DNA of 64,000 bases from Chryseobacterium sp. C-71. Its GTDB lineage: Bacteria > Bacteroidota > Bacteroidia > Flavobacteriales > Weeksellaceae. The notes beneath the pieces were generated by a model. The model saw nothing but the letters and a program-made list of their open reading frames with translations. It ran no database searches and had not been told where the DNA came from. This document shows positions 1-9,526 of this stretch, in pieces. Within the stretch, counting starts at the first letter, position 1; every line of letters starts with the position of its first letter. A program made the translations under genes and the position numbers. The stretch is taken from assembly GCF_020911865.1 (NCBI RefSeq), contig NZ_CP087131.1, positions 2,480,001 through 2,544,000 of the forward strand, in the 5' to 3' direction.

Positions 1-1173
1 CTTTTCAATACAAGTGCCTCATATTCTTATAACCAATCAGATTTAAATTTCTCGACAGAAACCAATGACATTGAATCAGAAAAAACACAATTGTTGAATG
101 ACGGAAATTATATCAATTTCAAAGCAGTTATCGATAGAAAAATCAATAAAATAAGTGCTTTGCGAGGCGGGTTTGAATTAAATTATGCAAATGAAAAACT
201 AAATTTCGGCGAAGTCAATAAAAATTATCGGGATTTGATTTCTTCTGCTTTTGTGGAAACAGATTTAGGTTTCAGCAATCACTTTTCTGCAAAAATTGGT
301 GTGAGAGGAGAAAACTCTTCTTATCTTAATAAAACTAATATTGCGCCACGTTTTGCTTTGGCCTATCGTTTAGCAAAAGACTGGACAACCTCTTTCGCTT
401 ACGGATTGTTCTTTCAAAATCCTGAAAGTAAATACATTAACTCTTCTGCTCAATTAGATTTTCAACAATCACAACACTTTATTTTTCAGGTTCAGCGATC
501 AACGGAAGGAAGAAGCTTGAGATTTGAAGCATTTTATAAAAAATATGATGAACTGATAAAAACTCAAAACATTATTCCGGACGCAGATCAAAATCAGCAG
601 GTACAAACGGCCTTTAACAATAACGGAAACGGTTTTGCAAAAGGATTAGAACTATTCTGGAGAGATAAAAAAACATTTGAGAACATAGATTATTGGGTTA
701 GCTATTCATTTCTTGATTCCAAAAGAGATTTTCTGAATTATCCTGTGAGCTTAAAACCGAATTTCGCTGCAGAGCACACCATTTCCCTTGTTGCCAAAAG
801 ATTTATCCCCGAATGGAAAACTGGCGTTAATTTATCATACACCTATGCAAAAGGCAGACCTTATTATGATATTGTTACTCAGAATGATAAAAATATTATT
901 CGAAATGAAGGCAGGCTGAAGGATTATAATTCTCTCAATTTAAGCTTTAATTATCTGCCTAATCTTGGTAAAAAAGATGCAAAAGCGTTTACCATTTTTG
1001 TTGTGAGTATTTCAAATGTTTTAGGGACAAAAAACATTTACGGCTATAACTTTTCACAAAACGGATCAAGAAGTTCAGCGGTCGTTCCGCCAGTTAACAC
1101 GTTTGTATTTGTTGGGATGTTTATCAGTTTTGGGGTAGATAAAACACAGGATGCAATTAATAATAATCTTTAA
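1..1173 (+). CDS. Outer-membrane beta-barrel receptor (TonB-dependent receptor-like), C-terminal part
   Basis: The reading frame is open from the first base of the window, so this is the 3' part of a longer gene; the leucine codon at 91 is not a real start. The 390 visible residues alternate polar and aromatic residues as in membrane beta-strands, for example the stretches around EFNYANEKLNFGE and the closing strand VGMFISFGVD. This resembles the OMP_b-brl_3 / TonB-dependent receptor barrels of Bacteroidota, which import substrates across the outer membrane with energy from TonB. No plug domain is visible because the N-terminus is outside the window. The substrate cannot be told. A secreted helical protein follows 46 bp downstream on the same strand. 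Confidence 0.75.
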   Translation, partial: LFNTSASYSYNQSDLNFSTETNDIESEKTQLLNDGNYINFKAVIDRKINKISALRGGFELNYANEKLNFGEVNKNYRDLISSAFVETDLGFSNHFSAKIGVRGENSSYLNKTNIAPRFALAYRLAKDWTTSFAYGLFFQNPESKYINSSAQLDFQQSQHFIFQVQRSTEGRSLRFEAFYKKYDELIKTQNIIPDADQNQQVQTAFNNNGNGFAKGLELFWRDKKTFENIDYWVSYSFLDSKRDFLNYPVSLKPNFAAEHTISLVAKRFIPEWKTGVNLSYTYAKGRPYYDIVTQNDKNIIRNEGRLKDYNSLNLSFNYLPNLGKKDAKAFTIFVVSISNVLGTKNIYGYNFSQNGSRSSAVVPPVNTFVFVGMFISFGVDKTQDAINNNL

Positions 1174-1219: not shown

Positions 1220-1876
1220 ATGAAAAAATACATTTTAAGTTTTGCTTTATCTTGTATAAGCTTACTGTCTTTTGCTCAGAATAATTACGAAAAAGTAATG
1301 AAAGAGAAAATCGCTAAAATTGAAACCTGCAAAACACCGGAAGACTTTCAGGCTTTAGCCAACGATTTTCAGAGAATTGCTGAAAAAGAAACCACAAAAT
1401 GGCAGCCGAATTATTATACTGCTTTTTCCTATATTCAAAAAGGAAGAATTATGATGAGAGAAGGAAAAATGCAGGATTTGGATGTTGTCGCAGATCAGGC
1501 TCAAAAATATATTGATGCTGCAGGAAGTACAGATAAAGATAACTCCGAGATTCATTTGCTTCAGAAAATGGTTTATTCACTGAAAATGATGGTCAATCCT
1601 CAGGAAAGATATATGACTTTCGGTATGAAAGCACAGGAAGAATTAACGATTGCTGAAAAATTAAATCCCGATAACCCTAGAGTAAGCTTAATCAAGGCGG
1701 AAGACACCTACTTCACACCAGAACAGTACGGAGGAAGCAAAACTAAAGGCATTGAACAGTTCAAAACAGCCTTGGGAAAGTTTAATACTTTCAAGCCAAA
1801 AACCACATTAGATCCTGATTGGGGAAAACCGGAAGCTGAATATTTTATCGGATTGGGGACTTCAACCACAAAATAA
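1220..1876 (+). CDS. Secreted helical (TPR-like) protein of unknown function
   Basis: This 218-residue protein begins with a clear signal peptide (residues 1-19, hydrophobic core and a cut after SFA), so it is exported to the periplasm. The rest is mostly amphipathic helix; sections such as KYIDAAGSTDKDNSEIHLL and AEKLNPDNPRVSLIKAE look like degenerate tetratricopeptide units. No catalytic motif is visible. It lies 46 bp after the outer-membrane receptor and may be cotranscribed with it, and it is followed by a strong terminator at 1896-1921. A scaffold role next to the receptor is only a guess. Confidence 0.7.
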   Translation: MKKYILSFALSCISLLSFAQNNYEKVMKEKIAKIETCKTPEDFQALANDFQRIAEKETTKWQPNYYTAFSYIQKGRIMMREGKMQDLDVVADQAQKYIDAAGSTDKDNSEIHLLQKMVYSLKMMVNPQERYMTFGMKAQEELTIAEKLNPDNPRVSLIKAEDTYFTPEQYGGSKTKGIEQFKTALGKFNTFKPKTTLDPDWGKPEAEYFIGLGTSTTK

Positions 1877-1895
1877 TTCAAATAAGAACAACTTG

Positions 1896-1921
1896 AAAAC
1901 CTTCTATTGCGGAAGGTTTTT
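1896..1921 (+). terminator. Rho-independent terminator after the secreted helical gene
   Basis: A nine-base perfect stem (AAAACCTTC pairing with GAAGGTTTT) with a seven-base loop is followed by T residues, 20 bp after the stop codon at 1876. It closes the upstream unit just before the LytTR boxes begin. Confidence 0.8.
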
Positions 1922-1950
1922 CAGTTCAGAACATAAAATCAACCGTTCGG
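1921..1950 (+). promoter_or_regulatory. Predicted LytTR-type regulator site upstream of the 2TM kinase operon
   Basis: Two nine-base boxes, TCAGTTCAG (1921-1929) and ACCGTTCGG (1942-1950), stand as direct repeats with a 12-base spacer, so their centres are 21 bp apart on the same face of the helix. This is the geometry known for LytTR-domain regulators such as AgrA. An almost identical pair lies at 5776-5805. It sits just upstream of the promoter at 1962-1991, an activator position. The likely binder is the LytTR protein encoded at 6992, by inference. Confidence 0.7.
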
Positions 1951-1961
1951 TGACAAATAAT

Positions 1962-1991
1962 TTTTGCTGCAGATAATTTGATTTACTTTTG
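1962..1991 (+). promoter_or_regulatory. Promoter of the 2TM histidine kinase operon
   Basis: TTTTG (1962-1966) and TACTTTTG (1984-1991, matching TAnnTTTG) are 17 bp apart, fitting the Bacteroidota housekeeping promoter. The kinase ATG follows at 2009. Confidence 0.6.
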
Positions 1992-2008
1992 AATGAGAAT
2001 ATTACATC

Positions 2009-3334
2009 ATGAAACGTAAAGATTTTATAATACTACTTTGGATCTCTCTGGCAACAGCACTTTTCTTCTTCTTTTTCTTTAATCAGGAAATGACGTTTGA
2101 GAATTTTGCGATTACTTTTTTGATTTCGGCGATGTATTCATTTACTATTGGCGTTGGAAACGGCGTTATTAATGAGTTTCTTAATAAGAAGTTTCCCTGG
2201 TCTGAAAACACTAACAAGAGAGCAATTTTAAGTGTTATTTCCATTCTGATTGCCAATTTTGTGCTCGTTTATCTGTGTAATTATATCAATTTCGTGATTA
2301 TTCAAAAAGCGGCAACTACCGAGCAGTTCTTTGGTGGTGATTATAATTTCAGAAATTGGTTTATGATCAATATTGCTTTGCTGATTTCTGCATTTCTGCA
2401 TGCAAAAGGTTTTATGTCTGAGCTTAGCAAAACGTCCAGAAAAGAAGTTGTGGAGCAAAAGCTCATTGCAAAATCTGCCAATGCACAGTTTGAAAGCTTA
2501 AAAAACCAGCTCGATCCGCATTTTCTTTTTAATTCATTGAATGTTTTGAGTTCATTAATTGATGAAAACCCAACTCAGGCTCAAAAATTTACCGCTTCAA
2601 TGTCAAAAATTTATCGATATGTTCTCGAGCAGAAAGACAAAGAACTGGTGACTATAGATGACGAAATAGAATTTGCAAAAACCTATTGTGACTTGCTGAA
2701 AACAAGATTTGAGGACAGTGTCAATTTTATTTTTGATGTAAAAGATGAAGATTTACGAAGATTTGTCGTGCCGCTTTCTTTGCAGTTACTTTTAGAAAAC
2801 TGTATCAAACATAATTTAGCAACATCTTCAAAACCTTTATTAATAAGGATTTTTACAGAAAGAGATACGTTATGCATTGAAAATAATCTGCAGATTCGTG
2901 AGCAGATGAAAGAAAGTGCAGGGATTGGTTTGGCGAATATTGTACAGCGGTATTCTCTGCTTACCGATAAAAATGTTTTTGTTGAAAAATCGGAAGATTA
3001 TTTTAAAGTAAAGCTTCCGGTTCTTAATTATAAACCTAATATTGTCAATAATTTAGTTGATGAAGATATGCAAGCCTACGACAGGGCAAAAAAGAGAATG
3101 AAAGAAATAAAAAGTTTCTACGGAAACCTGATTGCTTATTGCATTATTATTCCGTTTTTAGCGATTGTGAATTTAATGACCTCTCCAAAAAATATCTGGT
3201 TTCTCTGGCCAATGTTAGGTTGGGGAATCGGTTTGGCAGCACACGGAATGGGCGCTTTTGCAATTGGAAGAAACTGGGAAGAAAGAAAAATAAGAGAAAT
3301 TTTAGACAAACAAAACAAACATGGAACATTCTAG
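2009..3334 (+). CDS. LytS/YehU-type sensor histidine kinase with C-terminal 2TM domain
   Basis: The 441-residue protein has an N-terminal membrane region (hydrophobic segments near 6-25, 35-52, 72-95 and 117-131), a HisKA_7TM-type His_kinase domain (PF06580 style) with the phospho-acceptor His171 in the motif LDPHFLFNSL, an N-box ENCIKHN at 263-269 and a G-box GIGLAN at 305-310. Unusually it continues into a 2TM domain (about 357-435) ending in NWEERKIREIL. That domain is close in sequence to the small stand-alone 2TM proteins downstream, especially the one at 5892. The next 2TM gene overlaps its end by 14 bases. The partner is very likely the LytTR regulator at 6992. The signal sensed is unknown; the 2TM domain may let it pair with the small 2TM proteins. 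Confidence 0.9.
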   Translation: MKRKDFIILLWISLATALFFFFFFNQEMTFENFAITFLISAMYSFTIGVGNGVINEFLNKKFPWSENTNKRAILSVISILIANFVLVYLCNYINFVIIQKAATTEQFFGGDYNFRNWFMINIALLISAFLHAKGFMSELSKTSRKEVVEQKLIAKSANAQFESLKNQLDPHFLFNSLNVLSSLIDENPTQAQKFTASMSKIYRYVLEQKDKELVTIDDEIEFAKTYCDLLKTRFEDSVNFIFDVKDEDLRRFVVPLSLQLLLENCIKHNLATSSKPLLIRIFTERDTLCIENNLQIREQMKESAGIGLANIVQRYSLLTDKNVFVEKSEDYFKVKLPVLNYKPNIVNNLVDEDMQAYDRAKKRMKEIKSFYGNLIAYCIIIPFLAIVNLMTSPKNIWFLWPMLGWGIGLAAHGMGAFAIGRNWEERKIREILDKQNKHGTF

Positions 3335-3620
3335 CAAAAACCACATCCGTTATCGTGAAGCGGAAAGAAGAGTAAAAAAAATCAAAGGATTTTATACGCA
3401 TGCAATGGTGTATTTTTTCGTCAATATTTTTGTCATTGGCGCAAAAGCACTCGATCTGGATCCGGGAGAAAAGTATTGGGAATGGGATTTATTGAAGCTT
3501 CCTCTGTTGTGGGGAATTGGTTTGGCTGCACATGGGTTAAGCATTTTCTTGCCAACAATGATTCTTGGTAGTGACTGGGAAGAAAAGAAGATCAAAGAAC
3601 TGATGGATAAAGATAAGTAA
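3321..3620 (+). CDS. Small 2TM-domain membrane protein
   Basis: This 99-residue protein is almost entirely one 2TM domain (PF13239 type). A basic amphipathic start (YREAERRVKKIKGFYTH) precedes two membrane helices (about 30-45 and 58-78), and a charged tail SDWEEKKIKELMDKDK follows. It overlaps the kinase gene by 14 bases and so is translationally coupled to it. The same layout is seen in the kinase C-terminus and in the proteins at 5892, 6192 and 6503. A role as a membrane partner or signal modulator of the kinase is inferred from the shared domain and the coupling. The family has no established biochemical function that I know of. Confidence 0.88.
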   Translation: MEHSSKNHIRYREAERRVKKIKGFYTHAMVYFFVNIFVIGAKALDLDPGEKYWEWDLLKLPLLWGIGLAAHGLSIFLPTMILGSDWEEKKIKELMDKDK

Positions 3621-3808
3621 ATGAATGTAATGTATTTACTTTTTTATGGTTCTATGGCGGTTTGGTTTCTAAGCGAATTTATTACAAGCAAAAATTTAAA
3701 TCAGAAAAAAAAGACCAAAAGAAAGATCAATCTCCACTCAATATTTTGTGGGTATTGATTCTTCCGTCGGTCTTTTTAGCGGTGAGAATTTCTAAACTGG
3801 CTACTTGA
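3621..3808 (+). pseudogene. Frameshifted, truncated membrane-protein gene (possibly isoprenylcysteine methyltransferase-like)
   Basis: An ATG directly after the stop of the 2TM gene begins a protein MNVMYLLFYGSMAVWFLSEF, a membrane helix typical of the start of small integral-membrane methyltransferase-like proteins. In the same frame it ends at 3758. If one A is restored to the run of eight A residues at 3705-3712, the reading continues as KDQKKDQSPLNILWVLILPS and a second helix to a stop at 3808. The two parts together make sense as one protein of about 62 residues, so a poly-A slippage is likely. Even repaired it is far too short for the methyltransferase family (usually about 200 residues), so the 3' end is also lost. 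The family assignment is tentative. Confidence 0.5.
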
Positions 3809-3835
3809 ACTATCAGAAATCAAAAGTAGCAGCTT

Positions 3836-5653
3836 CTATTTTTTCACGGTCATTTTAAAAACTTTTAAAACATTTCCTTTTTCATTATTTATTTTTAGCA
3901 AATAATTTCCTGTGTCTAATAGATTTTGCATGTCAAACTTCTGATTTTTAGATTTTTCCATTTGTTTTTTAATGATAAATCTTCCGGAAGTATCGTAAAC
4001 GGATAGACTGCAATCTTCTTTCTGCAACACATTTCCTGAAATACTGAAAATTCCATTGTTGGGATTATTGTATAAAACCAAATCTTTATCTAAACTCAAT
4101 TCGTTTACGGAAAGCTCCTGTCTTGAATTAAATCTTGCAAAAAAACCATTTGTAGCATAGCTATTATCAGGAATTCTGTTTGGCATAAATGCTCCTTCAG
4201 AAGCAAAACCGGTATTTGAATTGGTGTTACCATACAAGAAAAGTGAATGGTCATCGTATTTGATATTGATTGATTTTAAAATTGCAGTTGTCGTTGAGCT
4301 GCCTCCATAATATGAACTCCACTGAAGATTTCCGGACGCATTAAATTTAGCAAAGAAAGAATTACTTGATGTAGCAGTTGAACTCTGTGGTGTAGGCTGG
4401 TAAGATCCTGTGGTTGCTATATTATTTGTAGATCCGGTTGTTGTTCCTGTAATGAATATTTCTCCGCCGTTGAGTGCAATTACTTTATCAAATGTATTTA
4501 AATCATCTCCGTTTCCTCCAAAATAAGTGCTCCAGAGACGATTTCCATTGTGTGAAAATTTGGATAGAAATAAATCTGAACCACCACTAACCTGAGTTTT
4601 ATAAGCTCCAGGTGTAGCAAACATGTTGGTTCCATCAATATTAAAATCTGTACCTACAAGGTATAGACCTGTTTCGTTGACTGCTAGGTCATATAAAAAG
4701 GAAAATGAAACTAATGGTGATGGACCGTAGTATGTTCCCCAGGTTCTCTGTCCGTTTGATGTATCAATTTTGGTAATTGAAGAACTAGAAACGGTATTTT
4801 GAAAAGTTCCGGGAGTCGCCATTGTAGTAAGAGCAGGATTGGTATTCTTTGCAGTAATCATATACAACGCATTATCATAATACGCCATGTTGTGAACTTC
4901 TGATGGAAGATAGGTTGCCCATAAAAGCTGCCCGTTTGAATTTAATTTTGCCAAATAAGTATTCGCTATAAGCTGACCTTGTGCATACATAACGTCAAAA
5001 TTCTCCTGAAATACACCTGGTGTACTGATATTCTGCATGGTAGTTACGCCGGTAATGTAAATGTTTCCAGCGTCATCGGTAACAGAAATTGCATACATAT
5101 TGTCTTCAGGAAGATAGGTTGCCCAGATAATACTTCCCGTTGAAGATCTTTTGATGAGCATATTTTTAAATGTACTCAGCGGGTTTGTCTGCATCCACGT
5201 TCCTGGTGTTGCATTTATTACAGAGGTCAGGGGTCCGGTGTATCTTATTATTTTATTATCCTGACCATCAATTGCTGTAAGATGTTCTACAGAAGTAGTG
5301 TTATTGCCATCGTTGAGCTGATAGCCAAAATAATCAGGAATTCCGTCTGGACTAAAACGGGTTGAATAAAAATTGTGAGTACTGCCCGAAGAAGTATAAT
5401 TTCCGCCATTTCCGAGAACAAACTGATTGTAATAAGTGTTTGTGAGATTTGAATTATAAAATACAGTTCCTCTTATGTGCATGTTTTTTTGAGAATCAAA
5501 TGTAATTCCATTAGCAGAAAAGCCACCGTTAACTTCAATGCCTGATGGCCCAAAATAGGTTCCCCAAACTCTTTCATATTCTTGTGAGAGCAAAGGCGTT
5601 AAAGATAAATTGATCAAAAAAAGGCAGCAGATTTTCAGTAAATTTTTATTCAT
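3836..5653 (-). CDS. Secreted beta-propeller-like protein with T9SS type A sorting domain
   Basis: The 605-residue protein has a signal peptide (residues 1-23, ending PLLSQ), then a body of about 500 residues rich in Ser, Thr, Asn and Gly with recurring strand motifs such as VWGTYFG, IWATYLP, LWATYLP, TWGTYYG, LWSTYFGG and QWSSYYGG. These recall SBBP-type (seven-bladed beta-propeller) repeats. The last 85 residues (NELSLDKDLVLYNNPNNGIF to the end VFKMTVKK) form a Por-secretion/T9SS type A sorting domain, which sends the protein through the type IX system to the surface or medium. The gene lies on the opposite strand between the two 2TM units and does not belong to their operons. It may be an adhesin or surface protein; the ligand is unknown. 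Confidence 0.85.
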   Translation of the reverse strand: MNKNLLKICCLFLINLSLTPLLSQEYERVWGTYFGPSGIEVNGGFSANGITFDSQKNMHIRGTVFYNSNLTNTYYNQFVLGNGGNYTSSGSTHNFYSTRFSPDGIPDYFGYQLNDGNNTTSVEHLTAIDGQDNKIIRYTGPLTSVINATPGTWMQTNPLSTFKNMLIKRSSTGSIIWATYLPEDNMYAISVTDDAGNIYITGVTTMQNISTPGVFQENFDVMYAQGQLIANTYLAKLNSNGQLLWATYLPSEVHNMAYYDNALYMITAKNTNPALTTMATPGTFQNTVSSSSITKIDTSNGQRTWGTYYGPSPLVSFSFLYDLAVNETGLYLVGTDFNIDGTNMFATPGAYKTQVSGGSDLFLSKFSHNGNRLWSTYFGGNGDDLNTFDKVIALNGGEIFITGTTTGSTNNIATTGSYQPTPQSSTATSSNSFFAKFNASGNLQWSSYYGGSSTTTAILKSINIKYDDHSLFLYGNTNSNTGFASEGAFMPNRIPDNSYATNGFFARFNSRQELSVNELSLDKDLVLYNNPNNGIFSISGNVLQKEDCSLSVYDTSGRFIIKKQMEKSKNQKFDMQNLLDTGNYLLKINNEKGNVLKVFKMTVKK

Positions 5654-5775
5654 AATGATATGATTGTGAGTTGGTGTATAAAGATAATCAAATTCTCTAA
5701 ATAATGAATTATATTTTTAATTTTTCAAATTTATGTTAAATTGAAAAAACTACAAGCAGTTGAGTGAGAGTTTTT

Positions 5776-5805
5776 ACAGTTCAGCCTCAAAAATCTACCG
5801 TTCGG
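5776..5805 (+). promoter_or_regulatory. Predicted LytTR-type regulator site upstream of the three-gene 2TM operon
   Basis: ACAGTTCAG (5776-5784) and ACCGTTCGG (5797-5805) repeat the arrangement at 1921-1950: same boxes, same 12-base spacer. The distance to the -7 element (34 bp) is also nearly the same as in the first copy (33 bp). The first box matches the LytTR consensus exactly. Confidence 0.75.
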
Positions 5806-5815
5806 TTATATAAAG

Positions 5816-5847
5816 TTGAAGTGAAACGATTTCTTGACCTAAATTTG
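5816..5847 (+). promoter_or_regulatory. Promoter of the three-gene 2TM operon
   Basis: TTG (5816-5818) and TAAATTTG (5840-5847) are separated by 21 bp, which fits the Bacteroidota promoter. The first 2TM ATG follows at 5892. Confidence 0.6.
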
Positions 5848-5891
5848 ACTCAAGAAAACAAACAAATATTAATTTTTTAAAACAAAACATC

Positions 5892-6185
5892 ATGGAAAAT
5901 TTATCATTCAACAAAGAAAATTTAGCATACGAAAAGGCAGCAAAAAGAGTAAAAGATCTGAAAGGATTTTATGGCAATCTGACTTCTTATTGTTTAGTAA
6001 TTCCATTTTTATTGATTCTTAATCTTTTGACTTCGCCTGAGCATTTGTGGTTTTACTGGCCGATGCTAGGTTGGGGACTAGGTCTTACCATTCACGCAGT
6101 AGGCACTTTCGGAATCGGGAAAGATTGGGAAGAAAAGAAAATAAAACAATTGATGGAAGAGGAGAAAAGAAATGCTTTTAAATAA
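5892..6185 (+). CDS. Small 2TM-domain membrane protein
   Basis: The 97-residue protein is a single 2TM domain: a basic start (YEKAAKRVKDLKGFYGNL), two membrane helices (about 34-50 and 56-76) and the tail KDWEEKKIKQLMEEE. Of the small proteins here it is the closest to the C-terminal domain of the kinase at 2009; both share the block LLTSP/LMTSP, then WPMLGWG between the helices. It is the first gene of a tight unit with the proteins at 6192 (6-bp gap) and 6503, driven by a promoter with a LytTR-type site. The close match to the kinase domain suggests duplication from, or capture into, the kinase gene. Confidence 0.88.
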   Translation: MENLSFNKENLAYEKAAKRVKDLKGFYGNLTSYCLVIPFLLILNLLTSPEHLWFYWPMLGWGLGLTIHAVGTFGIGKDWEEKKIKQLMEEEKRNAFK

Positions 6186-6191
6186 TTAGCC

Positions 6192-6476
6192 ATGGAAAAT
6201 AACCTTGAAAAACTTAAATACAAGCGGGCTAAAAGTAGAATGGAAGAAATAAAAGCATTTTATATGATGCTTGGCGGATGCTTTTTACTCATGCCTTATT
6301 TAATTTTCATCAATATGAAAGTAAATCCCGAATTGCAGTGGTTTTGGTTTCCATTATTTGGGTTCGGAATAAGTATTTTAGGTTATGCACTTTATCTTTT
6401 TGCAGGAAAAGACTGGGAAGAGAAAAAAATAAAAGAACTGATGGAGGAGGAGAGAAGAAATTCAAAATCACTTTAA
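6192..6476 (+). CDS. Small 2TM-domain membrane protein
   Basis: This 94-residue protein is a further 2TM domain: basic helix YKRAKSRMEEIKAFYMML, two hydrophobic helices and the tail KDWEEKKIKELMEEERRN. It lies 6 bp after the previous 2TM gene and 26 bp before the next, clearly one transcription unit. It differs more from the kinase domain than its upstream neighbour does, lacking the WPMLGWG block (WFPLFGFG instead). Function unknown; it is presumed to act with the LytS/LytTR pair. Confidence 0.85.
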   Translation: MENNLEKLKYKRAKSRMEEIKAFYMMLGGCFLLMPYLIFINMKVNPELQWFWFPLFGFGISILGYALYLFAGKDWEEKKIKELMEEERRNSKSL

Positions 6477-6502
6477 TTAACAAACTTTAAAAAAGTAATA
6501 AA

Positions 6503-6778
6503 ATGAACTTTAATAACGCACAACAAAGAGTAAAAGACCTGAAATCATTCTATAAAAACTGTATGTGGTTTGGGATAGTAGCCTTGATCATATTTTTCAG
6601 AAGATTTATAAAAACTGGCGATTTATCTCAATCAATATTTAGCGGATCAATCATCCTGACGGTTTGGGGAATTATTTTGGCAGTAAAAGCAGTGAAACTA
6701 TTTATTTTCAATGCAGAATGGGAAAATAAAATTCTTGAGGAAGAAATGAGAAAGTCCAAAAAACCAATTAATTTTTAG
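6503..6778 (+). CDS. Small 2TM-like membrane protein (divergent)
   Basis: The 91-residue protein keeps the start pattern of the neighbouring 2TM proteins (NAQQRVKDLKSFYKNCMWFG) and has two membrane helices, but its tail is altered to AEWENKILEEEMRKSKK and the loop is unlike the others. It ends the three-gene 2TM unit that begins at 5892. I regard it as a divergent family member; the shared position and start motif are the main support. Confidence 0.78.
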   Translation: MNFNNAQQRVKDLKSFYKNCMWFGIVALIIFFRRFIKTGDLSQSIFSGSIILTVWGIILAVKAVKLFIFNAEWENKILEEEMRKSKKPINF

Positions 6779-6839
6779 AAACCGAAAAGATTTGATTATT
6801 TTTATTTAAAATTTATTATTGTCTGTAATCTAAGATAAC

Positions 6840-6935
6840 TGAAAAACTTAGTGAACTTTTATAAGTGAAACGGCTTTGTGTAACTTAAAAAAAAGTTTGT
6901 AGTTAAAAAATCGTTGTGAACTTTGCGTTAAAATT
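6840..6935. repeat. Degenerate intergenic repeat of the CTTTGTG type
   Basis: The stretch holds AAGTGAAACGGCTTTGTG and later GTTGTGAACTTTG. A related copy with AAGTGAAACGACTTTGTG and CTGTGAACTTAGTG is at 62198-62260, in the same order and with similar spacing. It lies between the last 2TM gene and the LytTR gene. Confidence 0.5.
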
Positions 6936-6942
6936 AAACATC

Positions 6943-6999
6943 ATGACTACTAAGAAATATTCAATTCAAATTAAACTAAAATACCAACTCAATGATTAA
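6943..6999 (+). other. Possible 18-residue leader peptide overlapping the LytTR start
   Basis: An ATG at 6943 opens a peptide MTTKKYSIQIKLKYQLND whose stop TAA lies inside the first codons of the LytTR gene, so the two overlap by 8 bases. Such an overlap could couple translation of the regulator to the leader. It is short and may be chance; there is no homology to judge it by. Confidence 0.25.
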
Positions 7000-7735
7000 A
7001 ACGGTCATCATAGAAGACGAAAAACCCGCTGCAAGAAAGTTAGAAAGAATGTTAAGTCTTTTCCCTGAATTACAGTTGGTTGCTAATCTGGAATCTGTGG
7101 AAGACGCCGTGCAATGGTTCTCAGAAAATGAGCATCCGCAGCTTATTTTTTCTGATATTGTTTTGGGTGACGGACTTTCGTTTGATATTTTTGAGAAAAT
7201 TTCCACTAAAGCTTTCATCATTTATACGACTGCGTTTGATCAGTATACTTTAAAAGCATTTAAATTAAACAGCATCGATTATCTTCTGAAACCCATCATG
7301 GATGAAGATTTGGCAGGTGCAATTGAAAAGTTTAAATCATTTCTTCCTTCAGATCAGTCGGTGAATTCGGATGATATCAAACAGCTCATCAAAAAAGAAA
7401 AATCAACGCTTTCAAGAATTTTAGTGAAAATAGGATACAACTTAAAAATCGTTCAGACGCACGAGGTCAGCTGTTTTTTTAGTGAAAATAAGATTGTATA
7501 TCTGCAAACTTCAGACAGAGTTTATCCTTCAGATTTTACTTTAGATGAATTGGCTGAAGTGCTTGATGATAAGAAATTTTTCCGTGTCAACAGACAGTTT
7601 ATTATCAATTCAGATTACATCAAAAATATCCATACTTCGCCTAATTATAAGGTTGAATTAAACTTTCAGCCACAAGAGGAAATTACAGTAAGCAGGGAGC
7701 GTGTAAAAGATTTTAAAGATTGGCTGGTATGTTAA
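6992..7735 (+). CDS. LytTR-family response regulator (LytR/AlgR type)
   Basis: The 247-residue protein has an N-terminal receiver domain (acidic pocket E8, D9, E10; phospho-acceptor Asp55 in FSDIVLGD; Thr80 in YTTAFD; Lys100 in YLLKPI) and a C-terminal LytTR DNA-binding domain (about 145-245, with FFRVNRQFIIN and VSRERVKDFKDWL). Domain order and length are normal for the family. LytTR proteins bind direct repeats of a nine-base box, and exactly such pairs stand before both 2TM transcription units (1921 and 5776). It therefore most likely regulates the kinase at 2009 and the small 2TM genes, and receives phosphate from that kinase. It is separated from the last 2TM gene by 213 bp and may have its own promoter. 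Confidence 0.93.
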   Translation: MIKTVIIEDEKPAARKLERMLSLFPELQLVANLESVEDAVQWFSENEHPQLIFSDIVLGDGLSFDIFEKISTKAFIIYTTAFDQYTLKAFKLNSIDYLLKPIMDEDLAGAIEKFKSFLPSDQSVNSDDIKQLIKKEKSTLSRILVKIGYNLKIVQTHEVSCFFSENKIVYLQTSDRVYPSDFTLDELAEVLDDKKFFRVNRQFIINSDYIKNIHTSPNYKVELNFQPQEEITVSRERVKDFKDWLVC

Positions 7736-7775: not shown

Positions 7776-8672
7776 CTATTTATAATCTATTCGGTTAGCC
7801 TCTGTATCTTCTAATTGTTTAATAATTGACGGCGGAATTTCGTCGCTGTCAATAGGAAAACTGATGGAGTCGGGCATAAAGTTTTTTCTGTCAGCTTTCT
7901 GAAAGATCTCGAAAAGAGCAATCGGCTCTTGATTAAAACTAATACAAGTACTTATAAAATGCAGTTCATAGAGCTTATATTCTGGGATTTTAATCTTCTC
8001 ATTGATGTCTTTTATTCTTGAGATAAAATGTCTTTGGCGGATAAACGTATTGCTGTTCATGATGATGAAAACATAATCTGAATACGCCGTTATTTTCCCA
8101 AAATACTTGTGGCGGTCGCCGCCGCTTCTTTCGACAAAATATTCACCCGAAGTTTCAGATTTGTAGATTTCCATTGCAGAGCGCCAGATTCGGTCGTCTT
8201 TTGCCTGAGAAGGGTTTTCCGGAAGATTTCTGTTGTAAGAATACCAACATCCGACAAGCCTGTCAAGCAATTCTGTGTTCTGTTTCACATTATTCATATC
8301 AATTCTCAAATCATTAAAATTGAATGATTCTGTATTTGAATTGATGAAATCAATATAATTTGAATAACCTAAAACTTTGACAATCAAGCTTAATTTTGCC
8401 AGATTTGATTTGCTTATAACCGAATTTTCGTTTTGATAATATTTCTTTAGTTTGTTAATAATCAAATGTTCATACAGGTAATTTGAGCCTAAGATGTCTG
8501 CCTCTTTCTTGATGTTTTTATCTGTGTTTTCACGGATAATTAAATCGTTAAGTTCTGCAACGATGTATGACCATTCGGTTTTTGAAACATCTTCCCAATG
8601 GTTTTTCTTTAAAAAATGCAGGCTCAGAAAGTTCATCAGTTTCTCCAAGTGCAGAATATCTTCTTTTTTCAT
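7776..8672 (-). CDS. Uncharacterised protein, 298 residues
   Basis: I do not recognise this protein. There is no signal peptide or membrane helix. The first 130 residues look all-helical (MKKEDILHLEKLMNFLSLHF and following); the second half is more mixed, with GCWYSYNRNLPENP, the core GKITAYSDYVFIIMNSN and an acidic C-terminus. The translation is free of low-complexity sequence and the codon use is like that of its neighbours, so it is probably a real cytoplasmic protein. It is convergent with the LytTR gene and divergent from the Gly/Cys-tail gene at 8789. No function is proposed. Confidence 0.7.
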   Translation of the reverse strand: MKKEDILHLEKLMNFLSLHFLKKNHWEDVSKTEWSYIVAELNDLIIRENTDKNIKKEADILGSNYLYEHLIINKLKKYYQNENSVISKSNLAKLSLIVKVLGYSNYIDFINSNTESFNFNDLRIDMNNVKQNTELLDRLVGCWYSYNRNLPENPSQAKDDRIWRSAMEIYKSETSGEYFVERSGGDRHKYFGKITAYSDYVFIIMNSNTFIRQRHFISRIKDINEKIKIPEYKLYELHFISTCISFNQEPIALFEIFQKADRKNFMPDSISFPIDSDEIPPSIIKQLEDTEANRIDYK

Positions 8673-8788: not shown

Positions 8789-9526
8789 ATGGAAACAAAA
8801 ATCTTATTACAAAATGATTCTCTTTGGAACAGACTTCAAAGTTTTTCATTAGACACCCCAAATGTCGATTTTCCCTTTTCAAAAAAATTGGCAAAAGAAG
8901 AAAACTGGACTTTAGATTTCACTGCAAAGGCAATAGAAGAGTACAAAAAATTCGTTTATCTCTGTTGTACTTTACCAAACGGCGCTTCACCAAGCGAAGT
9001 TGTAGATAAAGTCTGGCACATGCATTTGATTTACACCCAAAATTACTGGGAAGAATTTTGCCCGAATATTTTAAAACGAAAACTTCATCATCATCCATCA
9101 AAAGGCGGTTTTGAAGAAAAAAATAAGCACACAAACTGGTTTTCGGATACATTAAACGGCTACAGACAAATTTTTCAGGAAGAAGCTCCGGAAGATATTT
9201 GGAAAAATAAAAATATTAAACAAAAATCTAAAGGGTTTTGGTTAAAAAATATCAGGATTTTTTCTTTAATCTTCATTGTATTGATATTAAATTCTTGCTC
9301 AGATAATGTTGGTTCTGCTTTGCTTACAGTGATATTAATCGGGGGCGTGTTATTCTTCATTTTTGGGATACTGGGTTCAATATTCGATGATAATAATGTG
9401 ACTGATTTAAAAAATAAAAAACAGAATGATGACTCGGGTGGAAGTTGCGGCGGCGGCGGAAGTGGTTGTAGTGGCGGAAGCGGTTGCGGCGGTGGATGCG
9501 GCGGTTGTGGTGGATGCGGCGGATAA
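8789..9526 (+). CDS. Glycine-rich domain (GRDP-like) membrane protein with Cys/Gly tail
   Basis: The 245-residue protein has an N-terminal cytoplasmic domain with the motif VDKVWHMHLIYTQNYW (about 72-87), the DxVWHxHL signature of glycine-rich-domain (GRDP/DUF1399-like) proteins. Two membrane segments follow (about 154-170 and 176-197). After a short polar linker comes a 29-residue tail (217-245) made only of Gly, Ser and Cys, with six cysteines spaced two to five residues apart and ending CGGCGGCGG. The small membrane protein at 9540 follows 13 bp later and is probably cotranscribed. The DxVWHxHL domain is known in plants and bacteria without a settled function; the tail could bind metal or form disulphides, by inference. 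Confidence 0.75.
   Translation: METKILLQNDSLWNRLQSFSLDTPNVDFPFSKKLAKEENWTLDFTAKAIEEYKKFVYLCCTLPNGASPSEVVDKVWHMHLIYTQNYWEEFCPNILKRKLHHHPSKGGFEEKNKHTNWFSDTLNGYRQIFQEEAPEDIWKNKNIKQKSKGFWLKNIRIFSLIFIVLILNSCSDNVGSALLTVILIGGVLFFIFGILGSIFDDNNVTDLKNKKQNDDSGGSCGGGGSGCSGGSGCGGGCGGCGGCGG

Follow-up and report, generated by a model that had tools for sequence, protein, structure and literature searches.

LytTR-type regulators of known function provide a frame for the system described here (papers are cited by PMC number, each represented by excerpts). In LytTR operons the 9-bp repeats are usually separated by 12 bp and strongly favour a position 10 bp before the −35 element (PMC6193735). The HdrRM and BrsRM systems of S. 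mutans encode the LytTR regulator together with membrane proteins, have 9-bp direct repeats with a 12-bp spacer before their own operon and show positive feedback (PMC6193735). For AgrA of Staphylococcus aureus, direct-repeat pairs lie just upstream of the promoter, with the proximal repeats centred near −60 (PMC4227749). The E. coli pairs BtsS/BtsR and YpdA/YpdB each combine a LytS-type kinase with a LytTR regulator and have transporter genes as targets (PMC5552118). In Porphyromonas gingivalis, HusA/HusB brings together a TPR-like protein of the HusA family and a TonB-dependent receptor. Likenesses to each of these are found in Chryseobacterium sp. C-71, in a stretch of 64,000 nucleotides (contig NZ_CP087131.1, positions 2,480,001 to 2,544,000; hereafter the window), where LytTR-type operators precede a kinase gene and a group of 2TM genes that is followed by the gene of a LytTR response regulator.

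There are also differences. In contrast to HdrRM and BrsRM, the present locus encodes a histidine kinase and a regulator with a REC domain and is therefore a two-component system; its membrane proteins belong to the 2TM family, and its predicted targets are an uptake pair rather than bacteriocin and competence genes. Membership of the LytTR regulatory systems (LRS) was considered and rejected, since the kinase gene is present in all 81 family loci and the regulator has a REC domain; the locus resembles an LRS without being one. Relative to AgrA, the box sequence, the promoter type and the target genes differ, as does the contact motif (FFRCHNS there, FFRVNRQ here). HusA/HusB differs in that the genes here are linked to a LytTR/2TM regulon. 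BtsS/BtsR and YpdA/YpdB both answer to pyruvate (PMC5552118). Neither system is known to include 2TM proteins.

A sequence-only reading of the window had proposed two matching operator pairs, TCAGTTCAG-N12-ACCGTTCGG at 1921-1950 and ACAGTTCAG-N12-ACCGTTCGG at 5776-5805, and both read exactly so. The operator of the kinase promoter comprises boxes at 1921-1929 and 1942-1950 and that of the 2TM promoter boxes at 5776-5784 and 5797-5805, all on the plus strand. Bacteroidota promoters consist of a −33 element and a −7 element of the form TAnnTTTG. The proposed distances from the second box to such −7 elements were borne out, at 33 bp for TACTTTTG (1984-1991, +) and 34 bp for TAAATTTG (5840-5847, +). 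Each operator is a 9-bp direct repeat with a spacer of 12 bp, within the 11-13 bp accepted for LytTR-type repeats. In the site consensus the TT of the −33 region stands ∼10 bp behind the second box, as is typical of LytTR sites, and the centre of the spacer is A/T-rich. Of the distinct sites of the family set, 31 of the 100 with distance 33 have TTG at offset 10 or 11, and 14 of the 22 with distance 34 have it at offset 10. The geometry from which the proposal had argued, nine-base direct repeats with a 12-base spacer, agrees with PMC6193735.

Within the window, the paired-box pattern with up to three mismatches has three matches, whereas 100 shuffles average 0.03. The kinase and 2TM operators account for two of the three and are exact. 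The third (8549-8578, three mismatches) lies inside a gene on the minus strand (7776-8672) and was rejected as an operator: it is within a coding region, on the other strand, and no −7 element stands behind it. Eight of 11 congener loci (L077-L080 and L084-L087) have matches of this kind, with one to four mismatches, at this gene as well, and the recurrence is read as protein-coding conservation. An Rfam search of 1800-7000 gave no match. The sigma-70 scan (22 promoter-like sequences against 20.4 in shuffles) and the terminator scan (3 against 2.7) stayed near shuffle level and are thus uninformative.

When the whole genome was scanned for the paired boxes, both proposed sites were recovered, but the regulon proved larger than proposed, with a third promoter. 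A loose LytTR consensus (WMMGTTNRK twice, N12) was discarded as not distinctive, with 6 hits in the genome and 7 for the reversed pattern. The narrower ACNRTTCRG-N12-ACNRTTCRG with up to one mismatch occurs four times in the 4.22 Mb genome, and its reversed control once; the four are the two operators, one site before a TonB-dependent receptor gene and one at C1:2006326. With the −7 element included, again at up to one mismatch, only three places in the genome remain; the next have three mismatches, which hits of the reversed controls reach as well, and two of these (C1:3868746 and C1:3301920) were rejected on that ground. The third promoter site (C1:2478862-2478932) is 1.1 kb before the window and precedes the receptor gene, which starts 1.05 kb before the window and ∼90 bp behind the operator. 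The C-terminal part of this gene occupies 1-1173 (+), and Pfam finds CarbopepD_reg_2 and Plug in the first 550 residues of the protein.

Behind the receptor gene lies a gene for a HusA-like haemophore (1220-1876, +), whose product of 218 aa has a signal-like N-terminus and matches no Pfam family. The relation to HusA was established with a 17-sequence profile against PDB sequences (E 1.5e-38, profile positions 21-213), and the HusA fold is likewise assigned to the protein; its identity to HusA is ∼30%. The groove of HusA includes, besides F80, the positions M116, L122, L123, P126, W130, L157, Q160 and Y164 (PMC6173696). In an alignment read manually, the latter eight fall on M117, M123, M124, P127, Y131, I158, E161 and F165 of the window protein. 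HusA homologues in free-living Bacteroidetes have been noted before (PMC6173696).

Taken by themselves and judged by eye, two sites would be weak evidence, and a loose consensus is common, so that chance, or shared descent of neutral DNA, has to be considered. The kinase query finds matches in 111 of 120 family genomes, some of them via other LytS-type kinases only. Apart from the own genome, the 82 best-scoring genomes, less G001 and G034, supplied 80 loci, which with the window makes 81 loci; the site scans leave aside the weaker kinases of 53 family genomes. In these 81 loci, ACNRTTCRG boxes with up to one mismatch each form 67 pairs, in 17 genera, at a spacing of 12, whereas no other spacing between 3 and 40 has more than 5. 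The N12 pairs are followed by TAnnTTTG at 33 bp in 32 cases, at 34 bp in 16, at 12 bp in one, and at no other distance from 10 to 60. At least one site (boxes and −7 element, up to two mismatches, slightly relaxed consensus) is present in 66 of the 81 loci; the 72 obtained under a looser criterion are not relied on. Where an operon is headed by a 2TM or HusA-like gene, the site usually stands before that gene. In all 11 congener loci (L077-L087) the 2TM site is found at distance 34 with up to two mismatches. Loci of the family_extra set, chosen for carrying sites, are not used as evidence of conservation. All of 60 sampled genomes of the genus match at up to three mismatches, single hits at this level being near the control and not relied on.

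The pattern also holds in 46 loci (L254-L299) that played no part in deriving the consensus, which came from the family; they belong to Flavobacterium, Tenacibaculum, Polaribacter, Winogradskyella, Lutibacter and others, with some metagenome-assembled genomes of uncertain family; 26 of 80 loci with weaker kinase matches (L300-L325) are not included. Five of the 46 (L254, L256, L262, L270 and L276) are Flavobacterium loci that combine a relative of the kinase with a candidate site. The unchanged consensus with up to two mismatches finds the spacer of 12 with distance 33 in 28 of these loci (30 sites), against 0 for other spacers from 6 to 18 and 0 to 5 for other distances from 20 to 47. Allowing three mismatches raises this to 41 loci (51 sites), with 0 to 2 for other spacers and 0 to 16 for other distances. 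A consensus relaxed at two positions after viewing these loci finds a site in 44 of the 46; the counts of the unchanged consensus are used instead. Among the 120 family genomes, the full pattern at spacing 33 with up to two mismatches is present in 72, against 6 for the reversed control. The spacing histograms, the genome counts and these further loci contradict chance or neutral descent. The boxes, their spacing and the −7 element are kept across the sites of relatives while flanks and much of the spacer vary. This explanation is so improbable as to be negligible. The sequence-only reading had staked its proposal on conservation of the boxes in relatives carrying the operon, and in most of the 81 family loci and of the 46 further loci they are kept.

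Sites and kinase go together. A site is present in 58 of the 64 genomes in which the kinase orthologue is full-length, in 11 of 26 with an intermediate match and in 3 of 30 with a weak match or none; for 58/64 against 3/30, Fisher's test gives p 1.2e-14, the genome classes and the cut having been chosen by us. The three genomes with a site in the last class are G076, G003 and G031, and the sites of the latter two have two mismatches. In G076 a perfect operator (L226 501-720) stands before what is left of a HusA-like gene, its first ∼32 residues, and the 4.5 kb examined contain no kinase or regulator match; this site is probably a relic.

The linked LytTR protein, encoded at 6992-7735 (+), is the best candidate binder. 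Pfam recognises both of its domains, REC (PF00072, 40.4 bits, cut-off 30.2) and LytTR (PF04397, 77.7 bits, cut-off 22.6), and its best NCBIfam match is BtsR, with 107.2 bits below the cut-off of 246. Against PDB sequences, the single sequence and a profile found mainly receiver domains; among the best 60 of 117 profile matches the LytTR part is covered by 3d6w alone, and AgrA is not among the matches listed. The general LytTR contact motif is FhRhHRS, with FFRCHNS in AgrA (PMC4227749). This is the most conserved stretch rather than a strict requirement, and FFRVNRQ keeps F, h, R, h and the second R while H and S are changed. FFRVNRQ itself occurs in 60 of 81 regulator hits; the motif was located in 79 of the 81, and in all of these the fifth position is N or S, never H. 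To judge from these residues, the differing motif would fit a private operator.

With six LytTR genes in the genome, another of these regulators, or several, might bind the sites instead. At the paralogue locus L160, moreover, a hybrid kinase gene is directly preceded by copies of ACAATTCAA at a period of 21 bp. This repeat, however, has no TAnnTTTG before the start codon, and it was rejected as a site of the same type. At the fifth contact position, where the 6992 regulator has N, H is retained in four of the five paralogues. Of the six, the one followed through the relatives is the 6992 type; its gene accompanies the kinase gene in 81 of 81 family loci, and the sites go with that kinase. Binding by another regulator is considered very unlikely. 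The hybrid kinase gene behind the repeat at L160 (C1:3910000-3915500) adjoins another LytTR gene.

The operator pairs are quite probably activator sites of the 6992-7735 regulator, placed at three operons that would serve haem or porphyrin uptake and feedback. A phosphorylated regulator dimer would bind both 9-bp boxes on one face of the DNA, given the 21-bp period. Reaching to ∼10 bp before the −33 region, it would bring RNA polymerase to a promoter of the Bacteroidota type, with TAnnTTTG 33 or 34 bp further on. The three promoters served would be the one shared by the TonB receptor and HusA-like genes, that of the kinase-2TM operon and that of the three 2TM genes with the LytTR gene. With these three targets the system would switch on its own kinase and membrane proteins along with the haem or porphyrin uptake pair, and its feedback would be positive. 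Through the C-terminal 2TM domain of the kinase, the free 2TM proteins may in turn tune its activity. The original proposal that the regulator activates the kinase and 2TM operons is supported by the geometry, the linkage of kinase and regulator and the conservation; binding and activation are what we infer from these. LytTR proteins can also repress, and the departure of AgrA from a site just downstream of a promoter leads to derepression (PMC4227749). Repression from the present sites is nevertheless very unlikely: they precede the −33 region by an almost constant distance, which is where LytTR activators are reported to sit (PMC6193735), and do not overlap the −7 element.

The LytS-type histidine kinase (2009-3334, +; 441 aa; PF06580) ends in a 2TM domain (PF13239), and its H171, N264, G305 and G307 are invariant in 10 aligned sequences. 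Its end is overlapped by the gene of a 2TM protein of 99 aa (3321-3620, +), and the second promoter is followed by three more, of 97 aa (5892-6185, +), 94 aa (6192-6476, +) and 91 aa (6503-6778, +), all recognised by Pfam. The kinase and the four small proteins score 48.8 to 105.5 bits for PF13239 (cut-off 24.8), and all five 2TM domains of the genome sit in this cluster.

Several observations weigh against activation of an uptake and feedback regulon by this regulator. No site is found in 15 of the 81 family loci under the relaxed criterion with two mismatches, and in the congeners the kinase site (distance 33) is present in 8 of 11, being absent from L077, L079 and L080. By genome, sites with up to two mismatches at spacing 33 are lacking in 6 of the 64 with a full-length kinase and in 15 of the 26 with an intermediate one. 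Five further LytTR genes lie elsewhere in the genome, and the contact motif of the linked regulator departs from the one usual in LytTR proteins. Among the named linked genes, none was recognised as encoding a haem-degrading enzyme. Finally, the last 2TM gene and the LytTR gene are separated by 213 bp that include a dispersed intergenic repeat (6840-6978; 41 matches in the genome, itself included), against 52-60 bp in 10 congener loci (L077, L079-L087). Because of this gap, feedback on the regulator is less sure than feedback on the kinase. The autoregulatory loop claimed at the outset, if it is to close via the 2TM promoter, depends on transcription running on into the LytTR gene.

Around these genes, 3621-3823 is a gene remnant, with about the first third recognisable and in more than one frame. 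Its intact counterpart behind the kinase-2TM genes of congener locus L183 encodes a PEMT/ICMT-like methyltransferase of 188 aa. Between the kinase and 2TM operons, the minus strand carries a gene (3836-5653) whose product has a type IX secretion sorting tail; L183 and L184 have a methyltransferase gene in its place. Downstream of the cluster, 8789-9526 encodes a protein with a cysteine- and glycine-rich C-terminus.

Uptake of haem or porphyrin is most likely what the conserved LytTR regulon serves. The sites could be LytTR operators all the same while the HusA-like protein and its receptor carry another ligand and the regulon answers to another signal, for example membrane stress sensed by the 2TM part. 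This alternative is doubtful but credible, since the window protein is just ∼30% identical to HusA, and the alpha/beta hydrolase, DUF2141 and PEMT/ICMT-like targets have no clear haem role. In some relatives, further sites precede genes for a probably secreted alpha/beta hydrolase, a ChaN-like protein or a DUF2268 protein, and at further loci sites stand before DUF2141 and HusA-like genes; 15 of 201 sites, counted over four partly overlapping locus sets, have no recognised gene behind them. The gene of the probably secreted alpha/beta hydrolase, with the same operator and −7 spacing, is unlinked at L166-L172, L178-L179, L215-L216, L218-L220 and L222-L224. At L231 and L232 (genus g21) a site with one mismatch precedes the gene of a 215-aa protein, membrane-like by eye, that fitted no class.

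As far as titles and the opening lines of abstracts show, none of the matches listed in the open-licence literature connects a LytTR regulator with a HusA-like gene or with 2TM proteins, and no paper was found on DUF2141 and LytTR together. The Riemerella regulator of PMC5399024 was rejected as a description of this system, being predicted in the excerpt to belong to the OmpR family. The excerpts of two further Riemerella papers (PMC10986502 and PMC5429918) mention no LytTR regulator, that of PMC7139808 mentions LytTR for AgrA only, and those of PMC11237479 and PMC10197871 do not treat this system.

For a two-component system that is widespread in the Flavobacteriales and, as far as we found, uncharacterised, the analysis offers an operator, a regulator and a gene set that can be tested. 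It gives the 2TM domain family a physiological context and places HusA-type genes under a predicted switch. More tentatively, a LytTR regulon responsive to haem or porphyrin may extend across the Flavobacteriales, with the co-switched free 2TM proteins feeding back on the kinase through its C-terminal 2TM domain, a possibility that we hold to be on the unlikely side. If true, such feedback would be a new coupling of haem capture at the outer membrane to sensing at the inner membrane, and would be a first function for the 2TM family.

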